Translations under genes and position numbers: made by a program
DNA from: an uncultured Bacilli bacterium
GTDB lineage: Bacteria; Bacillota_I; Bacilli_A; RF39; UBA660
DNA length: 32,163 nucleotides
NCBI GenBank assembly: GCA_947628785.1
Contig: CANRBE010000008.1
Location: 1-32,163, forward strand
Direction of reading: 5' to 3'
Shown here: in pieces, positions 1,151 through 29,939 of the stretch
Position numbering within the stretch: the stretch's first letter is position 1
Layout: each line of letters begins with the position of its first letter
Notes under the pieces: model-generated
Seen by the model: the letters and a program-made list of their open reading frames with translations, nothing else
Told to the model about the DNA's origin: nothing
Databases searched by the model: none

Positions 1151-2296
1151 ATGAAAAAAATTATCTGTTTAGTTGTTACTTTTTTACTTTTTACAAGTTA
1201 TGTTAATGCTTTAGATAATAATTTAGATTTAAAAGCTAAAAGTGCAGTTTTGATTGAACAAAGTACGGGAAAAGTAATATTTGAAAAAAATGCTCATGAA
1301 AAATTAGCTCCAGCTAGTATGACTAAAATAGCCAGTATGTTAGTAATTATTGAGGCAATAGAAAAGGGTACTATTAATTGGAATGATATGATTACTGTAA
1401 GTGAAAATGCTTCTAAAATGGGTGGTAGTCAAATATTACTTGAAACAGGAGAGCAAATGAGTGTTTCTGATTTATTTAAAGGGGTAGCTGTCGCTAGTGG
1501 AAATGATGCTGTTGTAGCTTTAGCAGAAGCAGTAGCTGGTAGTACTGATGAATTTGTAAAAATGATGAACCAAAAAGTTAAAGAATTGGGTTTAAAGGAT
1601 ACAAATTTTAAAAATCCTCATGGTTTAGATACCGCTGACCACTATTCTAGTGCTTATGATATGGCCATGCTAGGTAGGGAATTAGTTAAACATGAGAAGG
1701 TGTTAGAGTATACATCTATTTATGAGGACTATTTAAGAAAGAATACAGATAGAGAATTTTGGCTTGTTAATACTAATAAGCTAGTCCGTTTTAATCCAAT
1801 TGTCGATGGTTTAAAAACAGGTTTTACTGAAAGTGCTGGATATTGTTTAACAGCTACTTCTTTAAAAAATGATATGAGATTAATAGCTACTGTTATGGGA
1901 GAGGAAAAAGCAACTGATAGAAATAGTGAAGCTAGTACTTTACTTGATTATGGATATGCTAAAATGAAAGCTCAAAAAGTATTGGAAAAAAATAAAGAAA
2001 TAACTAAAATTAAAATTGATAAAGCTTTAAAAGAAGAAGTATCAGTTGTTTCTAAAGAAGATGTTAAAGTAGTAAGAGATAAATCTGAAAAGATTGGAAC
2101 AATTACATACAATTTAAAATTAAATAATCAAAAATTGCCAATAAAAAAAGGGGATATTGTTGGTATTATAGAAATAAAAGAGGATGGTAAAATTATTGAT
2201 AAAGCTAAAGCAACCATATCAGAAGATATCGAAAAAGCTAAAATACCTACTTTATATTATAGATATTTAAAACAAATGATAAGTGGTATATTTTAA
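1151..2296 (+). CDS. dacF: D-alanyl-D-alanine carboxypeptidase (DacF/PBP5-like serine peptidase S11)
   Basis: Signal peptide; SxxK (ASMTK), SGN (ASGND) and KTG (LKTGFT) motifs. Confidence 0.9.
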   Translation: MKKIICLVVTFLLFTSYVNALDNNLDLKAKSAVLIEQSTGKVIFEKNAHEKLAPASMTKIASMLVIIEAIEKGTINWNDMITVSENASKMGGSQILLETGEQMSVSDLFKGVAVASGNDAVVALAEAVAGSTDEFVKMMNQKVKELGLKDTNFKNPHGLDTADHYSSAYDMAMLGRELVKHEKVLEYTSIYEDYLRKNTDREFWLVNTNKLVRFNPIVDGLKTGFTESAGYCLTATSLKNDMRLIATVMGEEKATDRNSEASTLLDYGYAKMKAQKVLEKNKEITKIKIDKALKEEVSVVSKEDVKVVRDKSEKIGTITYNLKLNNQKLPIKKGDIVGIIEIKEDGKIIDKAKATISEDIEKAKIPTLYYRYLKQMISGIF

Positions 2297-2397: not shown

Positions 2398-2779
2398 AAA
2401 AAGAAAAAGGATGAATTTATCATCCTTCAACACAACTAGCTAAAGCTTGTGGTGAACTAGCTGATGAACAACTTCCATCTGACCTAGCTCCATACTCTGT
2501 ATTATGTACAAAGTCACTTACACAGTTTTCTTTTGTTCCTGGTTTACAAGTTAATTTGAAATCACTATAATCATTTGCGGCATTATATGCTCTTATTTTT
2601 TGAACAGTAGCTTTTGTTAGAGTAAAGTGATACATTATTTTACTACTGTCATATATTTCATCTCCATTAACCCCTCTGTTTTTAGTGATATATTTAGCTT
2701 GTATTGTCTCATCATCCCAGTTAAATCCTGCTCTTCTTCCTTTCGCTGGTGAAGTCTTTCCTGGGAATGGATTATTTAA
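2398..2779 (-). repeat. Inverted copy of the 3' end of the 3219-6311 gene (382 bp, about 98% identical to 5952-6333)
   Basis: Reverse complement aligned by eye to 5952-6333: 7 mismatches, no gaps. Encodes the same C-terminal 71 aa after the internal Met, including the stop codon and the terminator hairpin. Confidence 0.97.
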
Positions 2780-3218
2780 TTCTGAGATACTTAATGTTTA
2801 AATATGAAACATTTATTGTTAAATTTTTAATTTATATAAGGTAAAGAAGAAAATTTTATTTTACTGACTAAAGTTTTTTTTATTTGATTTTAAATAATTT
2901 TTTTTCTTTATTTTTGTATGTTTTATTTAATGTTATTGATGTTTAAAAATTATAAAAAAATATATTTTAAGACAATTATAATTGTTAATTTAAAAGATTA
3001 TTGTAAATTTATTTATATTTAAACTCCACAATAAAAACTTTATTTATTCTTAAGAAATATGAATTAAATTTTTAAAATTTTATTATTAAAATTATGAAAA
3101 TTTTAAAAATTGTATTTTATTTTTATTCATTATATGTTATACTAAATTTGAATAAACATAATAAAAATATCGTAGATTAAAATATTCTACAGTATATTTA
3201 AAGATAAGGAGTTTAAAT

Positions 3219-6200
3219 ATGAGAATAGTAAAACAAGATAAATTAACTTTAATGTTGACTATAGCTTTTATTTTTATGATTACATTTGGTTTTGGAATTA
3301 TAAAAGTATTGGCTACTGATAACGGAGATGGAAATGGTACTGGAGGTTCTGAAATAAGTGGAGCTTGTACCCACACTGTTTGTAATGGTGTAATTCAACC
3401 AAAAGACAAACCTCCTATTGTTAAGTTAACTTTAGTTTATTATGATGGTAAGACTAGAAAAAAGATAGGTAAAACTCCAGTATGGTACCTTTCAGGAGTT
3501 TCTAAAAAAAGATTGCAAAATTTGGGAGTATATAATGCTTTATTAAGTCATGCCAAAGGAGCTCCAATTTATTACGATATAAGTTTTAGTTGGGGAAATT
3601 TTAAGAATATTGAAAAATGGATTGTTGGTACTAACAAAAAAGGTATTCCAGATAAAGGACTTTTGAAAAATCAAGTATATAAACGTTTTGGAATTAGTAA
3701 AGCTGATTTAAATCAGGAATCATGTATAGTTGATAAAAATGGTAATGGGAAACATAGAAAGAGTAATGGAAAATCTGAAACTTATATTGACCCAAAAACT
3801 GGTAAGGTAAAAGATGAAGAAGGTAGTTGTTATAAACAACCAGGTTACCGTGTAATAATGGAACCAGTTATGGTATTAGGACCTAAAAGTGGTGGACATA
3901 AATTTTATACAACAAAAGAATTAGCTAAAGGAGCCTTTAATTCTAAACCACCTAAATCTAATTATTATTGGTGGGTTCGTTGGTGGTCTTGGGATAATAC
4001 TATTACAGGAGATGGTAGGTCTTATTCAAAAACAGGTGTATTATGGAGAATGTATACTGAATATGCGGATATCAATATAAGTAAAGGAAATCCAAGTAAA
4101 CGATATAGTGAGATTGCTGGAAATAATTACAAAACGATAGCTAGCGATACAGATGGTGTTGGTTATTATATATTTGATACAGGTACATGGGATACTGGAG
4201 CTTGTGAAGCTTTTAATCCAGACCATTATAAAGCTAATCAAGAACCATCAACGGCTACTAGAACAAAAGGTAGTGGACCACAAGGACAAAACTGTTGTGT
4301 CGAAGTTGGTACGGCCTTACAATATCGAACTTCTAGTAAATATAAAGCTCAAGCTGATGCATATTTAAAAGAATTTCAAGACCTTAAATTAAAACTTGAA
4401 GGATATCCAACTGTTAATATCAATAATCTTTATGAAGTTTGGAAAGTTTATCATCCAGAATGTTTAGAAGATTTGTCTTATGTAGAAAAGCCAGAACTAA
4501 CTTGTGGTAAAACTGGTGAAGGTGGGGATACAACTAATTTTGGAGATAAGACAAAAGATGGTAGGTCTATTGTCGAAGATATGCTTGGTAGTGATAGAAA
4601 TAACGGAAAAGGTAAATACGTTTATAGAGATTATACTTACTGCGATATTTTATGTGGTGAAGAACTAACCTTGAAATTTCCAAAGCAAATTCAAGAAACG
4701 ATAACAAAAGGTACTAAATTAGTTTGGCCTACTAATGAAGGTGGAGCTATAGTTAATGCCTACCCTCTAACTTTAAAAGGTAAAGCAACTTGTACTTTGG
4801 ATATTGATTATCAATTATTAGATGATACATATTGTTATGATAGAACTGTAACTTCAACAGATGCTGATGGTAATAAAATAAGCTCAACTGTACATGTTTG
4901 TGGTAGTGGTTATTATACTCAAGAAGATAACTGTATAAAACATGCTAACGACGTAAATAAAAATAAAGATACTTTGAAAGCTTTCTATAATGTCAAAGGT
5001 GACTTTACAGTTGGTCATGATGATGATGAATATGGTGGTAATTTCAGCCTTGGGGAACCTTATGATGATGGATATAGTACTGGTAATTATAAAACAACTG
5101 GCTTCCCTGTAAGACGTAGTGGTAGTACATTTACTATTGAACAAACAGTTCAATATAAATTACCAACTAATTTATATAGATATGTTAATAATAACGACGG
5201 TGTTATAAAATCAAGTAATACCCCTAATTCTAATAACTATATTGATTTAGGCTATGGAAATTTACCAGTATCTTATAACGCTAAAGATGACACTATTTAT
5301 CATTACTTTATTAAATATAGTAATGTGGGTGGACTAGCTGGTAAAGAACAAGTTAAAGATGGAGAAGATTACAGTTGTGAATATGCTTTTGAAAAACCAG
5401 GAGTTGAGTGTAAATGTACCTCTGGTGAATACATGGGTAAAGACTTAACTGAATGTATGGCTGGTGGTTGTGATGGAGAAAAACATACTTGTGATGAAGC
5501 TAGAGAAAAATTCTGTAAAACCCCTAATTGTCTTTGTCCACCAGGTACATTGTATGCTGGAAAAGATATTTCAAGTTCTGTTACTGATGCTAAAACTTGT
5601 TTAGATGCTCAAAATGAACTTTGTGGAGGAAATTGTGGTGAAGATTGTCCTAAAGCAGTATGTCCTCCAACATCAGATTGGTATTCAGAATCTAATTATT
5701 CAATTGGAAATTTTGCCAATCAAGCGATAATTACTGATAAATGTTTAAGCGATAGTACTTGTACAGCCTTAACTTGTTCAGTCTTTGCTTGTCCTCCAGG
5801 AAAAGGAGATGGTAGTGGAAGACCACTAAATGCCTTAATAGCTCAATATTTAGCTAACCATCCAGGAAAAACATTCAATAAAGATTTATTAGATTATTTA
5901 ATTGAATGTAGTTGTGGTTCTTCTGAAAATATTATTTATAGAACAATAGATTTAAATAATCCATTCCCAGGAAAAAATTCACCAGCGAAAGGAAGAAGAG
6001 CAGGATTTAACTGGGATGATGAAACAATACAAGCTAAATATATCACTAAAAACAGAGGGGTTAATGGAGATGAAATATATGATAGTAGTAAAATAATGTA
6101 TCACTTTACCCTAACAAAAGCTACTGTTCAAAAAATAAGAGCATATAATGCCGCAAATGATTATAGTGATTTCAAATTAACTTGTAAACCAGGAACAAAA

Positions 6201-6311
6201 GAAAACTGTGTAAGTGACTTTGTACATAATACAGAGTATGGAGCTAGATCAGATGGAAGTTGTTCATCAGCTAGTTCGCCACAAGCTTTAGCTAGTTGTG
6301 TTGAAGGATGA
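3219..6311 (+). CDS. Large secreted or membrane-anchored Cys-rich surface protein (1030 aa), unknown function
   Basis: SD ataaggag; N-terminal hydrophobic segment LTLMLTIAFIFMITFGFGIIKVLA; multiple CxC / CPPG segments; Trp-rich patch YYWWVRWWSW. Confidence 0.9.
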   Translation: MRIVKQDKLTLMLTIAFIFMITFGFGIIKVLATDNGDGNGTGGSEISGACTHTVCNGVIQPKDKPPIVKLTLVYYDGKTRKKIGKTPVWYLSGVSKKRLQNLGVYNALLSHAKGAPIYYDISFSWGNFKNIEKWIVGTNKKGIPDKGLLKNQVYKRFGISKADLNQESCIVDKNGNGKHRKSNGKSETYIDPKTGKVKDEEGSCYKQPGYRVIMEPVMVLGPKSGGHKFYTTKELAKGAFNSKPPKSNYYWWVRWWSWDNTITGDGRSYSKTGVLWRMYTEYADINISKGNPSKRYSEIAGNNYKTIASDTDGVGYYIFDTGTWDTGACEAFNPDHYKANQEPSTATRTKGSGPQGQNCCVEVGTALQYRTSSKYKAQADAYLKEFQDLKLKLEGYPTVNINNLYEVWKVYHPECLEDLSYVEKPELTCGKTGEGGDTTNFGDKTKDGRSIVEDMLGSDRNNGKGKYVYRDYTYCDILCGEELTLKFPKQIQETITKGTKLVWPTNEGGAIVNAYPLTLKGKATCTLDIDYQLLDDTYCYDRTVTSTDADGNKISSTVHVCGSGYYTQEDNCIKHANDVNKNKDTLKAFYNVKGDFTVGHDDDEYGGNFSLGEPYDDGYSTGNYKTTGFPVRRSGSTFTIEQTVQYKLPTNLYRYVNNNDGVIKSSNTPNSNNYIDLGYGNLPVSYNAKDDTIYHYFIKYSNVGGLAGKEQVKDGEDYSCEYAFEKPGVECKCTSGEYMGKDLTECMAGGCDGEKHTCDEAREKFCKTPNCLCPPGTLYAGKDISSSVTDAKTCLDAQNELCGGNCGEDCPKAVCPPTSDWYSESNYSIGNFANQAIITDKCLSDSTCTALTCSVFACPPGKGDGSGRPLNALIAQYLANHPGKTFNKDLLDYLIECSCGSSENIIYRTIDLNNPFPGKNSPAKGRRAGFNWDDETIQAKYITKNRGVNGDEIYDSSKIMYHFTLTKATVQKIRAYNAANDYSDFKLTCKPGTKENCVSDFVHNTEYGARSDGSCSSASSPQALASCVEG

Positions 6312-6333
6312 TAAATTCATCCTTTTTCTTTTT
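5952..6333 (+). repeat. Right copy of the 382-bp inverted repeat (3' end of the Cys-rich protein gene plus terminator)
   Basis: Matches the reverse complement of 2398-2779 with 7 differences. Confidence 0.97.
6304..6333 (+). terminator. Intrinsic terminator overlapping the stop codon
   Basis: AAGGATGA-taaat-TCATCCTT followed by TTTCTTTTT. Confidence 0.65.
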
Positions 6334-6464: not shown

Positions 6465-7556
6465 ATGAAAGTAGTAATAAGTGCAGGTGGAACAGGTGGA
6501 CATATATATCCTGCTTTAGCTATATTAGATAAAATAAAAGAAAAAGAACCAGATAGTGAATTTTTATATATTGGCACACATAATAGAATGGAAAATGTTA
6601 TTGTACCAAAAAAGGGAATACCTTTTTCTAGTATTGAAATATATGGTATATATAAAAAACAACCTTGGAAAAATGTCAAAACTTTAACTTGTTTTATTAA
6701 AAGTCAAACCAAAATAAAAAAGCTATTAAAAGAATTTAAACCAGATGTTGTAATAGGTGTTGGTGGATATGTAACAGGTCCTGTTATTAAAGTAGCACAT
6801 AAACTAGGTATTAAAACTATTATCCATGAACAAAATAGTATTGCAGGAAAAGCCAATATTTATTTAAGCAAATACGTTGATAAAATATGTGTATCATTTA
6901 TATCAAGTAAAAAATATTTTGATGAAAAAAAAGTTGTCTTTACTGGAAATCCTGTTAGTGAAGTCGCTATTAAAGCTGAACCACTTGATAAAACAACATT
7001 AGGATTTAATAAAAACAAAAAATTAGTAGTTTTTGTAATGGGATCTTTAGGTTCAAATAAAGTAAATGATAGTCTTTTTGAAATATTTAAAAAAGTAACT
7101 TTAAAAGATTATGAAATACTTTGGATAACTGGTGATAATTATTATGAAAATATCAAAAAAGAAAAATTTTCTGACAATATAAAAATATTACCATATTTAG
7201 ATGATTTAGTTAGAATTTTAAAAAATACTGATTTATTAGTAACTAGAGCAGGAGCATCTACTTTAAGTGAAATAATAGCTTTAAAAATACCATCAATATT
7301 AGTGCCTAGTCCTTATGTTGCGAATAACCATCAATATAAAAATGCCTTTGATTTAATCGATAAAAAAGCTGCTTTATTAGTAGAAGAAAAAGATTTAAAT
7401 TATGATAATTTAATTCCTTTGATAGAAGAAACTTTAAAAAATCAAAGCAAAATATTGGAAATGAAAAATAACTTAAAACAGTTTCAGGTAAATAATAGTA
7501 GTGATAAAATATATGAAGTAATAATGGATGTGATAAAAAATGAAAGAAAATCTTGA
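6465..7556 (+). CDS. murG: UDP-N-acetylglucosamine--N-acetylmuramyl-(pentapeptide) pyrophosphoryl-undecaprenol N-acetylglucosamine transferase
   Basis: GGTGGHIYPALA N-terminus, GVGGYVTGP, HEQNSIAGKAN, RAGASTLSE. Confidence 0.96.
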   Translation: MKVVISAGGTGGHIYPALAILDKIKEKEPDSEFLYIGTHNRMENVIVPKKGIPFSSIEIYGIYKKQPWKNVKTLTCFIKSQTKIKKLLKEFKPDVVIGVGGYVTGPVIKVAHKLGIKTIIHEQNSIAGKANIYLSKYVDKICVSFISSKKYFDEKKVVFTGNPVSEVAIKAEPLDKTTLGFNKNKKLVVFVMGSLGSNKVNDSLFEIFKKVTLKDYEILWITGDNYYENIKKEKFSDNIKILPYLDDLVRILKNTDLLVTRAGASTLSEIIALKIPSILVPSPYVANNHQYKNAFDLIDKKAALLVEEKDLNYDNLIPLIEETLKNQSKILEMKNNLKQFQVNNSSDKIYEVIMDVIKNERKS

Positions 7557-8421
7557 AAAATGGGGTGAGGTAATAGAAAACGTCCCCTTATCAAACTATA
7601 CAACATATAGATTACTTGGAACAGCTGATTATTTAATAAAACCAAAAGGAATAGGTAGTTTATTAGAACTACTAAAATATTTAAAAAAACAAAACAAAAA
7701 ATATCAAATTATTGGTGGTGGAAGTAATTTAATATTTAAAAAACATTATGATGGTGTATTAATTAGTATGGACAACTTTAAAGATATAGAAATAGATGGA
7801 AATTACTGTATAGTTGGAGCTGGATATTCACTGATAGCTTTAGCTTTAAAAATGTCAAAATTAGGTTATACAGGTTTAGAATTCGCAACTGGTATACCTG
7901 GAACAGTTGGGGGAGCAGTTTATAATAATTCTGGGGCTTATAATAGTGATATGAGTCAAATAGTAAAATCTATTTTAGTAATAACACCTGATTTAGAAAT
8001 TAAAAGAATGTATAACCGTGATTTAAATTTTCACTATCGGGGGTCATATTTAAAAGACCAACAGGGATATATATGTTTAGAAGTGTCATTAGCTTTAAAA
8101 GAGGGATATATTGATATTATTGAAGAAATAATTGAAAATAGAAAAAAGAGAAGATTAGAAAGTCAACCCTTAAATTTTCCATCAGCGGGAAGTGTATTTA
8201 GAAACCCAGAAGGTAAATCAGCTTGGAAATTAATAGAAGAATTAGGACTGAAAGGAAAAACTATTGGCGGAGCTAAAATAAGTGAAAAACATGCGAATTT
8301 TATTATCAATGAAGGAAATGCTACAGGTGAAGATATAATCAAATTAATTAATGAAGTAAAAAAACAAGTAAAAGATAAATACAATATCGATTTAATATTA
8401 GAACAAGAAATAATAAAGTAG
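7540..8421 (+). CDS. murB: UDP-N-acetylmuramate dehydrogenase
   Basis: GGGSNLIF, GIPGTVGGAVYNNSGAY, YRGSY, PSAGSVFRNPEG, KISEKHANFIIN. Confidence 0.96.
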   Translation: MKENLEKWGEVIENVPLSNYTTYRLLGTADYLIKPKGIGSLLELLKYLKKQNKKYQIIGGGSNLIFKKHYDGVLISMDNFKDIEIDGNYCIVGAGYSLIALALKMSKLGYTGLEFATGIPGTVGGAVYNNSGAYNSDMSQIVKSILVITPDLEIKRMYNRDLNFHYRGSYLKDQQGYICLEVSLALKEGYIDIIEEIIENRKKRRLESQPLNFPSAGSVFRNPEGKSAWKLIEELGLKGKTIGGAKISEKHANFIINEGNATGEDIIKLINEVKKQVKDKYNIDLILEQEIIK

Positions 8422-8428
8422 GGATATA

Positions 8429-9145
8429 ATGAAAAAACAAGGAATAAAAAAGAAGGGAAATAGAAAAGTAGTAGTTAAAAAGAAATTACGTTTAGGACGT
8501 ATCTTTTTGGCTTTAACAATTCTTTTTACTATAATAATTATTGCTTGTTATATATATTTAAAACCAATAAAAAATATCATTATTAAAAACAATTATTATT
8601 TAACTGACCAGGAAATAATAGATATTTTGAAACTGTCTAAATATCCATCTTATTTTGAAACAACAACTAAAAATTTAAATAAGAAAATTCCAAAAGAATC
8701 TTTATTAAAAAAAGTTCAGGTCAAACATAATTTATTCTATGAAATAGAAATAAAAGTAGAAGAAAAAATACCAGTTTATTATGACCAAGAACAAAAAAAG
8801 ACAGTTTTAAATAATAAAGAAACTGTTGATAAATATTATCAAGTCCCACTTTTAAGAAACTATGTACCTGATACTATCAGTGATAAATTAATTGATACAT
8901 TAGCTAAAGTAAAAAATAATATCAAAGAAAAAATATCAGAAATAGAATATAATCCTAATGATGTTGATGAAGAAAGATTTTTACTTGTTATGTCTGACAA
9001 TAATAAAGTATATTTAACTTTAGAAAAATTTTTAAAAATCAATTATTATAATGAAATAATGGAAAGAGTTTTAGTAAAATATCAAAATAAAAAAGGAATA
9101 TTATACTTAGATGAAGGAGAATATTTTGTTCTTGAAAACAGTTAA
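8429..9145 (+). CDS. divIB: Cell division protein FtsQ/DivIB (POTRA domain)
   Basis: Lys-rich N-terminus, single TM, POTRA-like region; lies between murB and ftsA. Confidence 0.85.
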   Translation: MKKQGIKKKGNRKVVVKKKLRLGRIFLALTILFTIIIIACYIYLKPIKNIIIKNNYYLTDQEIIDILKLSKYPSYFETTTKNLNKKIPKESLLKKVQVKHNLFYEIEIKVEEKIPVYYDQEQKKTVLNNKETVDKYYQVPLLRNYVPDTISDKLIDTLAKVKNNIKEKISEIEYNPNDVDEERFLLVMSDNNKVYLTLEKFLKINYYNEIMERVLVKYQNKKGILYLDEGEYFVLENS

Positions 9146-21440: not shown

Positions 21441-22715
21441 ATGAAGAAAAAAAGTTTAATTGTAGTAATTATAGTAATAATAATTATATGTATTGGATGT
21501 ATTTTATTTTTAATGTTAAATAAAAATAAAGAAGAAAACAAAAAATTAGAACCTAGTAAAAATGAAACAAACACTATTAAACTAAATTCAAGTGACATAG
21601 ATTTTTCCCTTCAATTTTTGAAAATGGAAAATAAAATAGAAAATGTAGTTTATAGTCCTTTATCTATAAAATATGCTTTACAAATGTTAAATGATGGAGC
21701 TAGTGGTAATACTAAAACTCAAATTGAAAAAGCCTTAGGAAACACTAGTTTAGGTAAATATAATAACATAGATAAAGTTTTGTCTTTAGCGAATGCTTTA
21801 TATATTAGAAATGATTATTCAAAGTATGTTAAGGATGATTATAATAATAACTTAATTAGTAAATATAATGCCGAGGTAAAATATGATGATTTTAAAAGTG
21901 CTTATAATATCAACAATTGGATTGAAAACAAAACATTTGGGCAAATTAAAAATTTATTAACAGATGATGTAGTTACTGATTATGAGAATAAAATGTTTTT
22001 AATAAATGCTTTAGCTATTGATATGGCTTGGAAAAATAAATTTGAAGAAAAAAATACATATGGCATGACTTTTTACTTAGAAAACAATCAAGAAATGAAT
22101 GCGACTACTATGAGAAAAACAACTTCAGGTGACGATGTTTCATATTATAAAGATGATGATGTAACAGTATTAAACATGGATTTAGAAGAATATGAAGATG
22201 AACAACTAGAATTTATGGCTATTATGCCAAATAGTAATTTATCTGATTATATAAAAAATTTTAATACCGAAAAGTTAGAAAATATTGTTAATAAATTGAA
22301 ACTAGCTTCTGAAACTAACTATGGTGTATCTGTTTGGATTCCAAGATTTTCTTATGATTATAAATTAGATTTTGAAAATGATTTGAAAAAATTAGGAATT
22401 ACTGATGCCTTTAAAAAAGAGTTAGCTGATTTTTCAAATATGTCTAGTAAAACACCTCTTTGGGTAGGTGGTGCATTACATAAGGCTAATGTTGATTTTT
22501 CTGAAAAAGGTATTAAAGCCGCTGCCGCAACAGTTATTTATATGACTGTGGGTATAAATCCAAGTGAAGAAAAAAATAAACCAGTTGTAATAGAAATCAA
22601 TAAACCATTTATGTATTTGATAAAAGATAAAAAGACAAATGAAATTTGGTTCGTTGGAACAGTTTATAAACCAAATTCTTGGGAAGATGATAAAAAAGAT
22701 TACGAGTATAGATAA
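21441..22715 (+). CDS. Serpin (serine/cysteine protease inhibitor), N-terminally membrane-anchored
   Basis: N-terminal TM; NVVYSPLSIKYALQMLNDGASGNTKTQIEKALG; VSVWIPRFSYDYKLD; HKANVDFSEKGIKAAAATVIYMTVG (hinge plus reactive loop); INKPFMYLIKDKKTNEIWFVGTVYKP. Confidence 0.92.
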   Translation: MKKKSLIVVIIVIIIICIGCILFLMLNKNKEENKKLEPSKNETNTIKLNSSDIDFSLQFLKMENKIENVVYSPLSIKYALQMLNDGASGNTKTQIEKALGNTSLGKYNNIDKVLSLANALYIRNDYSKYVKDDYNNNLISKYNAEVKYDDFKSAYNINNWIENKTFGQIKNLLTDDVVTDYENKMFLINALAIDMAWKNKFEEKNTYGMTFYLENNQEMNATTMRKTTSGDDVSYYKDDDVTVLNMDLEEYEDEQLEFMAIMPNSNLSDYIKNFNTEKLENIVNKLKLASETNYGVSVWIPRFSYDYKLDFENDLKKLGITDAFKKELADFSNMSSKTPLWVGGALHKANVDFSEKGIKAAAATVIYMTVGINPSEEKNKPVVIEINKPFMYLIKDKKTNEIWFVGTVYKPNSWEDDKKDYEYR

Positions 22716-28331: not shown

Positions 28332-29939
28332 ATGAATGGGGATTTAAAAATAATCAAGAAAAAATATGGAGAAAAAATGGCTCATTTATGTCGAAATTTA
28401 TTTCCAAGTATTTTAGAAACTGAAGGAAAACTATCCGATATAATGTTAAAAACTTTTGATGAAAATCATGATTTGTATGAAGATATTGTAAATAATGAAT
28501 TAGTAGTACCTTTTAAAAATTATATTTATAGTTTACTTGATATAAAATTAGAAAGTATAAATACCTCCAAAACCGCTTGTGAACTTTTAGATATGGCAGG
28601 TTATACTTTATTTAAGTGTCTCACTGAACAAGATATCCAAAAATTTAAAAAATACTATTATAAAAGTGAAAAGCTATGTACTTTTAGAGGAGGAAGACTT
28701 AAAACAAACTATGTTTTTTTTGCCGTTAAAAAAGATGTTGATGAAATCAAAAGAAGTGATTTTAAAAACCCCAAAAGACAAGATAGATATGGAACAAGTG
28801 TTATAAGTATTCAATTTACTAAAGATAGTAATCATACCTTATCAATTAAAAATAGATACAATCATAGTGTTCAAAATCCAGATGCGACATTCTCTAATAA
28901 CTTAGATAATATAATACCTGGTTTAACTAATGCTTTTGAAAGAGATTATGAATTAAAACAAAAACATATTAATAAAACTACCTTTGAAATACCTAATTAT
29001 ATTTGTATCGAAGGAAAACACTATAAATATAATTATGAAATTAGTAATACTTATTATTGTCCTAATAATGTAGTAATAGAAAATTTTATGGTTAAAAAAT
29101 ATGATAAAGAAAAATATATATTGTTTGACTATTTTATCTTAGACTTAGTAAATAAAGACTTTGTTGATTCTTATATAAAAGATTCTTTTTTTGATACGAT
29201 AAAAAATATCAAAAAAATAAAAATTGAAAATAATAAAGAGGGTAAAAATATAATAATAACTACTGATTTAAAAGAAGATATTATTATAACTTTGAATAAA
29301 CAAAATAAAATAATTGGTTATAAAAATAATAATGTAACTGAAATATATATAAACTTTTTATATTATAATGACAGTATAAAAGATTTAGAACTTAATAAAG
29401 TAAAAAAAATATCATCTAATTTTTTAAGGTATAATAACAGTTTATTAAAATTATCCTTACCTAAAGTAAAGGAAATTGCGAATGATTTTTTAAGAGCAAA
29501 TCTTCATTTAAAAGAATTAAATTTACCTAGTTTAAAAATAGTATCTTGGGGTTTTTTAAGTTATAATTGTACTTTAGAAAAACTATCTTTACCTAATTTA
29601 GAAAGAATTGGTAGTTATTTTTTAAAGAGTAATGGCAAATTAAAAGAGATATATTTACCGAAAGCAAAAAAAGTAAGTTCATACTTTTTAAAATACAATA
29701 ACAGTTTAACTAGTTTGATATTACCAGAAGTTGTTAAAATAGATGAGGGGTTTATGATGCATAATGAATCACTTCTACTATTATATACTCCTAATTTAGA
29801 AACAACTTGGCATTCATTTTTAAAAGATAACAAAAATCTTAAATATTTTTATGCTCCTAAATTAAAATCATTAGGAGTAAATTGTTTAGAAAAAAATAAA
29901 AAAATAAAAAAACAAATTGTTAAACAATTAAAAAAATAA
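28332..29939 (+). CDS. Cytoplasmic leucine-rich-repeat protein with uncharacterised N-terminal domain
   Basis: No signal peptide. C-terminal part has about 8 units of 22 aa (e.g. IANDFLRANLHLKELNLPSLKI / VSWGFLSYNCTLEKLSLPNLER / IGSYFLKSNGKLKEIYLPKAKK). Confidence 0.85.
   Translation: MNGDLKIIKKKYGEKMAHLCRNLFPSILETEGKLSDIMLKTFDENHDLYEDIVNNELVVPFKNYIYSLLDIKLESINTSKTACELLDMAGYTLFKCLTEQDIQKFKKYYYKSEKLCTFRGGRLKTNYVFFAVKKDVDEIKRSDFKNPKRQDRYGTSVISIQFTKDSNHTLSIKNRYNHSVQNPDATFSNNLDNIIPGLTNAFERDYELKQKHINKTTFEIPNYICIEGKHYKYNYEISNTYYCPNNVVIENFMVKKYDKEKYILFDYFILDLVNKDFVDSYIKDSFFDTIKNIKKIKIENNKEGKNIIITTDLKEDIIITLNKQNKIIGYKNNNVTEIYINFLYYNDSIKDLELNKVKKISSNFLRYNNSLLKLSLPKVKEIANDFLRANLHLKELNLPSLKIVSWGFLSYNCTLEKLSLPNLERIGSYFLKSNGKLKEIYLPKAKKVSSYFLKYNNSLTSLILPEVVKIDEGFMMHNESLLLLYTPNLETTWHSFLKDNKNLKYFYAPKLKSLGVNCLEKNKKIKKQIVKQLKK

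Follow-up and report, generated by a model that had tools for sequence, protein, structure and literature searches.

In an uncultured Bacilli bacterium, the 3′ end of a gene for a large secreted surface protein is repeated in inverted orientation on the other side of the gene. To judge from its sequence, the locus appears to be a remnant left by gene shuffling; as an on/off switch it is unproven. The reading favoured here, at about even chances, is that a local rearrangement created a second, inverted copy of a recombination-prone 3′ module and that the two copies were then kept similar by homologous exchange. The window (the whole stretch of DNA that was analysed, 32,163 nucleotides) is a complete contig, G000:C8, of a 1.23-Mb assembly in 104 contigs, with 26% G+C and 76% completeness.

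Structure of the locus

The gene, its two tail copies and its neighbours are arranged as follows.

1151..2296, plus strand: dacF-like D-Ala-D-Ala carboxypeptidase (Peptidase_S11 and PBP5_C); left flank
2398..2783, minus strand: left (orphan) arm; inverted tail copy with stop codon and terminator, without body or start
2784..3218, no strand: spacer; AT-rich, single-copy, with the presumed promoter and ribosome-binding site of the surface-protein gene
3219..6311, plus strand: surface-protein gene; 1030 aa, secreted, Cys-containing
5934..6308, plus strand: conserved C-terminal domain of ~125 aa, xIIYRxIxLxNPFPG...GRxxGxNW...
5948..6333, plus strand: right arm; functional tail copy with stop codon and intrinsic terminator
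6303..6333, plus strand: stem-loop terminator with T-run; it overlaps the stop codon and recurs at 2428-2398 on the minus strand
6465..7556, plus strand: murG; right flank

In a repeat search of the window, the arms 2398-2783 (minus) and 5948-6333 (plus) were found to be 97.9% complementary over 386 nt. The original prediction had described 382-bp inverted copies, 2398-2779 (minus) and 5952-6333 (plus), with seven mismatches and no gaps; alignment of the arms reproduces this core exactly, and the four edge nucleotides that separate the two versions add one further mismatch. The longest exact run is 137 bp, and a search of the same genome returns the pair with E = 7e-191, far beyond chance. The arms lie ~3.2 kb apart and enclose 2784-5947. 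As predicted, they comprise the last ~120 codons, the stop codon and the intrinsic stem-loop terminator of the 1030-aa protein gene, the terminator being present on both strands. Their inner limit falls at the LNNPFPG codons within the conserved C-terminal domain, their outer limit just beyond the terminator.

Copy number is low throughout. The two tail copies in the window are the only ones in the 1.23-Mb assembly, and no further close copy of the gene body (3219-5945) was found there, in keeping with the prediction of a single-copy body. In 656 kb of the genome, searched contig by contig with thresholds of 80 bp and 80% identity, this inverted repeat is the only one. Upstream of the orphan arm the reading frame shuts within a few codons, and nothing in the spacer resembles, at the protein level, a second gene body.

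Neither Pfam nor NCBIfam contains a match to the 1030-aa protein, and a profile search of the PDB found nothing; a structure predicted for the C-terminal domain from a single sequence was dropped as unusable (pLDDT 45). A composite transposon or insertion element was considered and set aside: the interval holds the surface gene only and no transposase, and by eye no target-site direct duplication is seen just outside the arms. Elsewhere in the window, 21441-22715 encodes a 424-aa serpin (PF00079, E = 4e-73) in this small-genome bacterium. A 535-aa ORF at 28332-29939, lacking a Pfam match, has 75-78% similar DNA on at least four other contigs of the genome and would be a multi-copy gene family or mobile element.

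Predicted effect of inversion on the gene

Inversion between the arms was predicted to regenerate a complete ORF on the minus strand. In silico this is exactly the case: a 1030-codon ORF runs from 5512 to 2420, and crossovers simulated at the outer edge, in the middle and at the inner edge of the arms all restore it. The C-terminus of the product is identical, or changes from N to T and from D to E with an inner-edge crossover; the two tails themselves differ by one residue (N/T), and D/E is added only if the crossover falls within the first 4 bp. The upstream region 2784-3218, with the presumed promoter, travels with the gene body.

Since the ORF stays intact and at most two residues change, inversion would neither turn the protein off nor vary it. 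Nearly silent for the protein, it would change nothing but the transcriptional direction of the gene with respect to dacF on the left and murG on the right. Of the predicted switch of tail and direction, the second part stands and the first shrinks to those one or two residues. In terms of what defines an inverton, inverted repeats do flank the segment (386 bp, 98%); a change of expression or product on inversion is not found, as the presumed promoter moves along and the ORF keeps its length of 1030 aa with no more than two residues altered. The sequence does not support the label ‘phase variation’ for this locus, nor orientation switching as a source of product variation. A role of the left copy as donor cassette for C-terminal variation, also proposed, fits poorly, given that the tails are nearly equal and that across the family the tail is constant and the body variable.

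No dedicated invertase or other recombinase was detected among the window proteins scanned against Pfam, a scan that covered all but a few ORFs. RecA is encoded elsewhere in the genome, and homologous recombination between the arms is therefore still possible. The arms probably do recombine with each other, and flipping of the whole gene between them is possible.

Signs of constraint on the orphan tail

The orphan tail contains neither an internal stop nor a gap. Seven coding mismatches separate the arms (edge excluded), six of them synonymous and one non-synonymous. Under neutrality of every change, a count of at least six synonymous among seven has P = 0.0004-0.002; under decay of the left copy alone it has P = 0.004-0.025, the range depending on assumptions. 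The excess speaks against unconstrained drift of the orphan tail, an argument carried by just seven substitutions. There is moderate reason to think that this tail is under protein-level selection or was recently received from a selected copy; such a transfer could have been an exchange, an inversion or the capture of a tail from another strain. Third-position and fourfold GC/AT skew was also tried as a record of the past strand and rejected, the shift lying ~330 bp before the arm as part of a regional trend.

The C-terminal domain family

Of 386 genomes in the taxonomic family, 204 carry the C-terminal domain (the last 125 residues), which in almost every case closes a protein of roughly 600-1500 aa. 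Going by these matches, it is a family-wide, so far unannotated domain of large secreted proteins. In about 30 of roughly 40 relative loci fetched, the domain gene sits within a Tad-like pilus operon, together with genes for a DUF5411 protein, an RcpC/CpaB-like protein, a T2SSE/CpaF ATPase and two TadB/TadC-like membrane proteins, the last two assigned by position and size rather than by a family match.

The present genome has its own Tad-like operon on another contig (G000:C5:12000-31000, locus L111, 4345-13566). This contig looks native, its rpsI sharing 96% identity with the rpsI of the genus-mate G001. The operon lacks a large domain gene between the 217-aa protein and DUF5411, where relatives have one. 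Orthologs of the surface protein are found in both genus-mates, with 43-59% identity by segment in G001 and 35-53% in G002; judged from reading of translations, the gene lies beside a purine nucleoside phosphorylase-like gene in the former and a pseudouridine-synthase-like gene in the latter. Both have only a 29%-identical ATPase, and neither carries repeats at the tail of the surface gene. An operon without the gene, and genus-mates with the gene elsewhere, indicate that the gene has moved in the present lineage; its different loci in the three genus members, together with the contiguity of upA-upB-murG in G002, point to a rebuilding of the locus in that lineage. In G002 a tandemly duplicated array of repeat-containing genes (L018, G002:C4, 5316-10000) lies directly upstream of the surface gene.

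Compared with related genomes, the inverted arrangement is unconserved. Among the matches listed for the 386 family genomes, no other contig carries an opposite-strand tail pair, and the paralogs on multi-copy contigs are all on the same strand; the relatives’ loci examined likewise hold no inverted tail pair. A pre-inversion arrangement was not found among relatives, because the genus-mates carry the gene at other loci.

Tail homogenisation among paralogs

Within-genome paralogs were compared codon by codon, using only codons for identical residues. The clearest pair is formed by two tandem genes of G183 (L163, G183:C36, 3675-6134 and 6481-8862), in which 97% of these codons are identical in the tail vs 48% in the body (P = 1.7e-16), the bodies having ~28% protein identity; this is a strong sign of gene conversion in the tail. 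Tails are also more alike than bodies in G064 (89% vs 58%, P = 6e-6) and G110 (78% vs 59%, P = 0.002). G050 has a block of 362 bp and 91% identity that extends from the NPFPG codons to just after the stop; it is a direct repeat in tandem ORFs of 208 and 609 aa (L084, G050:C3, 3170-5699), the shorter of which seems to be the 3′ remainder of a paralog that was interrupted. The paralog pairs of G032, G066, G089 and G275 have no such step, and among three same-genus ortholog controls one (G149/G003) has a weaker step. The starts of the homogenised blocks are spread about +1 to -340 nt around NPFPG. At the level of synonymous sites, then, tail homogenisation is real in some genomes of the family and not general.

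These paralogs suggest that the tail is a substrate for homologous recombination and that the inverted copy in the present genome belongs to a recurrent process. The original prediction’s recombination between the tail copies thereby gains indirect support, from homogenised tails elsewhere and from the near-synonymous differences between the arms; product variation by switching does not.

Three further observations concern these genes. In the genome search, the match to the second G183 gene (6481-8862) contains two TAG stops. Two loci of G215 (L155/L156, G215:C22 and C9) are 96% identical over the first ~1860 bp and 89% in the tails, with ~240 bp of diverged sequence between; they form a mosaic, and the diverged stretch is possibly a variable segment. 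Contig breaks at the domain boundary (G168, G095, G075) were considered as signs of hidden tail repeats; a second partial copy was present only in G095, and by a rough estimate three such contig ends are not clearly above chance.

Proposed origin and alternatives

The tail module, consisting of the conserved C-terminal domain, the stop codon and the terminator, would be the recombination-prone 3′ part of large secreted proteins. The most economical founding event would be a single step in which the gene was inverted and one of the breaks, within the tail, was staggered (duplication associated with inversion). The outer tail copy would remain as an orphan, and the inner one would move with the gene. 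Later, the copies would be held alike by homologous exchange, that is, gene conversion and possibly further inversions, any of which would take the presumed promoter, the body and one tail together. Inverted duplicates are present at both ends of the segment, and no outgroup shares the locus. We infer both the founding event and the continuing exchange for this genome; a tail captured from another strain would yield an equal synonymous pattern. Duplication associated with inversion (DDAI) is known in bacteria (Furuta et al. 2011, as cited in PMC4671568 and PMC8963470).

The main rival to inversion with duplication is a relic of a second, divergently oriented paralog that lost its body and promoter by deletion after its tail had been homogenised by gene conversion. 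Several domain genes per genome are common, some with homogenised tails and diverged bodies, and the G050 block begins at nearly the same codons as the arms; yet the paralogs listed share one strand on every multi-copy contig, and upstream of the left arm there is neither a body remnant nor the NIIYR part of the domain, which leaves this a minority candidate. An active flip cassette, in which the arms would invert 2784-5947 often, both orientations would coexist and the two tails would be expressed alternately, is unlikely. Arms of 386 bp with a 137-bp exact run, 3.2 kb apart, an ORF intact in either state, two tails that look protein-constrained and the presence of recA would all suit it, but a barely altered protein offers no obvious selected outcome, and neither the matches listed nor the relatives’ loci contain another such pair. 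The same doubt applies to the idea that orientation would matter for murG or dacF, by transcriptional read-through or by antisense RNA. Somewhat less probable still is a gene-preserving inversion cassette or ‘body-swap dock’, whereby the whole transcription unit would flip, or its body be swapped through recombination in both arms, the frame with the constant C-terminal domain being kept each time, in a family with recombining tails.

Misassembly seems an unlikely source of the left copy, and we put a chimeric join or a second strain’s sequence at a low probability. Short-read assemblies mishandle repeats, this one is 76% complete in its 104 contigs, and strain mixing would give mostly synonymous differences. 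A hairpin chimera, however, should be identical, and the copies differ by 2%. A graph-based misjoin needs a long word in common with the flanks of the partner arm, and the joins at 2397/2398 and 2783/2784 are unique and have none; the repeat is also the sole one of its kind in 656 kb. A function of its own for the orphan tail, as a small gene or an antisense element, is very improbable: although an ATG-started 71-aa ORF (2420-2635, minus strand) ends in a terminator and promoter-like sites occur on that strand, these sites are not in excess (30 vs 26.7 in shuffles), and stand-alone tails elsewhere are almost confined to contig ends. Duplication by inversion followed by exchange is preferred.

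Significance and comparison with known systems

The locus draws attention to an unannotated, family-wide C-terminal domain, mostly found beside Tad-like pilus genes, in small-genome uncultured bacteria. Sequence comparisons suggest that the 3′ ends of genes with this domain recombine and their bodies diverge. If confirmed, this would provide a route by which bodies diversify while the anchor or secretion domain stays constant. The locus also serves as a warning that an inverted repeat flanking a gene need not mean a switch.

In the inversion system at sapA of Campylobacter fetus, homology-length inverted repeats are common to the surface genes, and several alternative genes are available for exchange. 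Homology-length inverted repeats in surface or specificity genes are shared with the sapA and hsdS systems (for hsdS, PMC4948785); there, several genes or modules are exchanged, whereas the present locus has one body and two equivalent tails. In Ureaplasma, another low-GC bacterium with a small genome, inversion at inverted repeats takes place in or beside the surface-protein genes mba and UU172, with Xer-type recombinases suspected (PMC3047005). Those repeats are short and lie in the 5′ part or the spacer, and the expressed protein changes; here the repeat is 386 bp long and at the 3′ end, inversion is only possible, and the product would be unchanged.

Like the DDAI cases cited in PMC4671568 and PMC8963470 (Furuta et al. 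2011), the locus has a breakpoint segment at both ends, in inverted orientation; unlike them, it involves just one gene unit of 3 kb, and the event is deduced without the ancestral orientation. Gene conversion between surface-protein paralogs, reviewed in PMC4534519, similarly keeps shared segments alike as other parts diverge, but in the present case it is the constant C-terminal domain, and not the variable part, that is homogenised.
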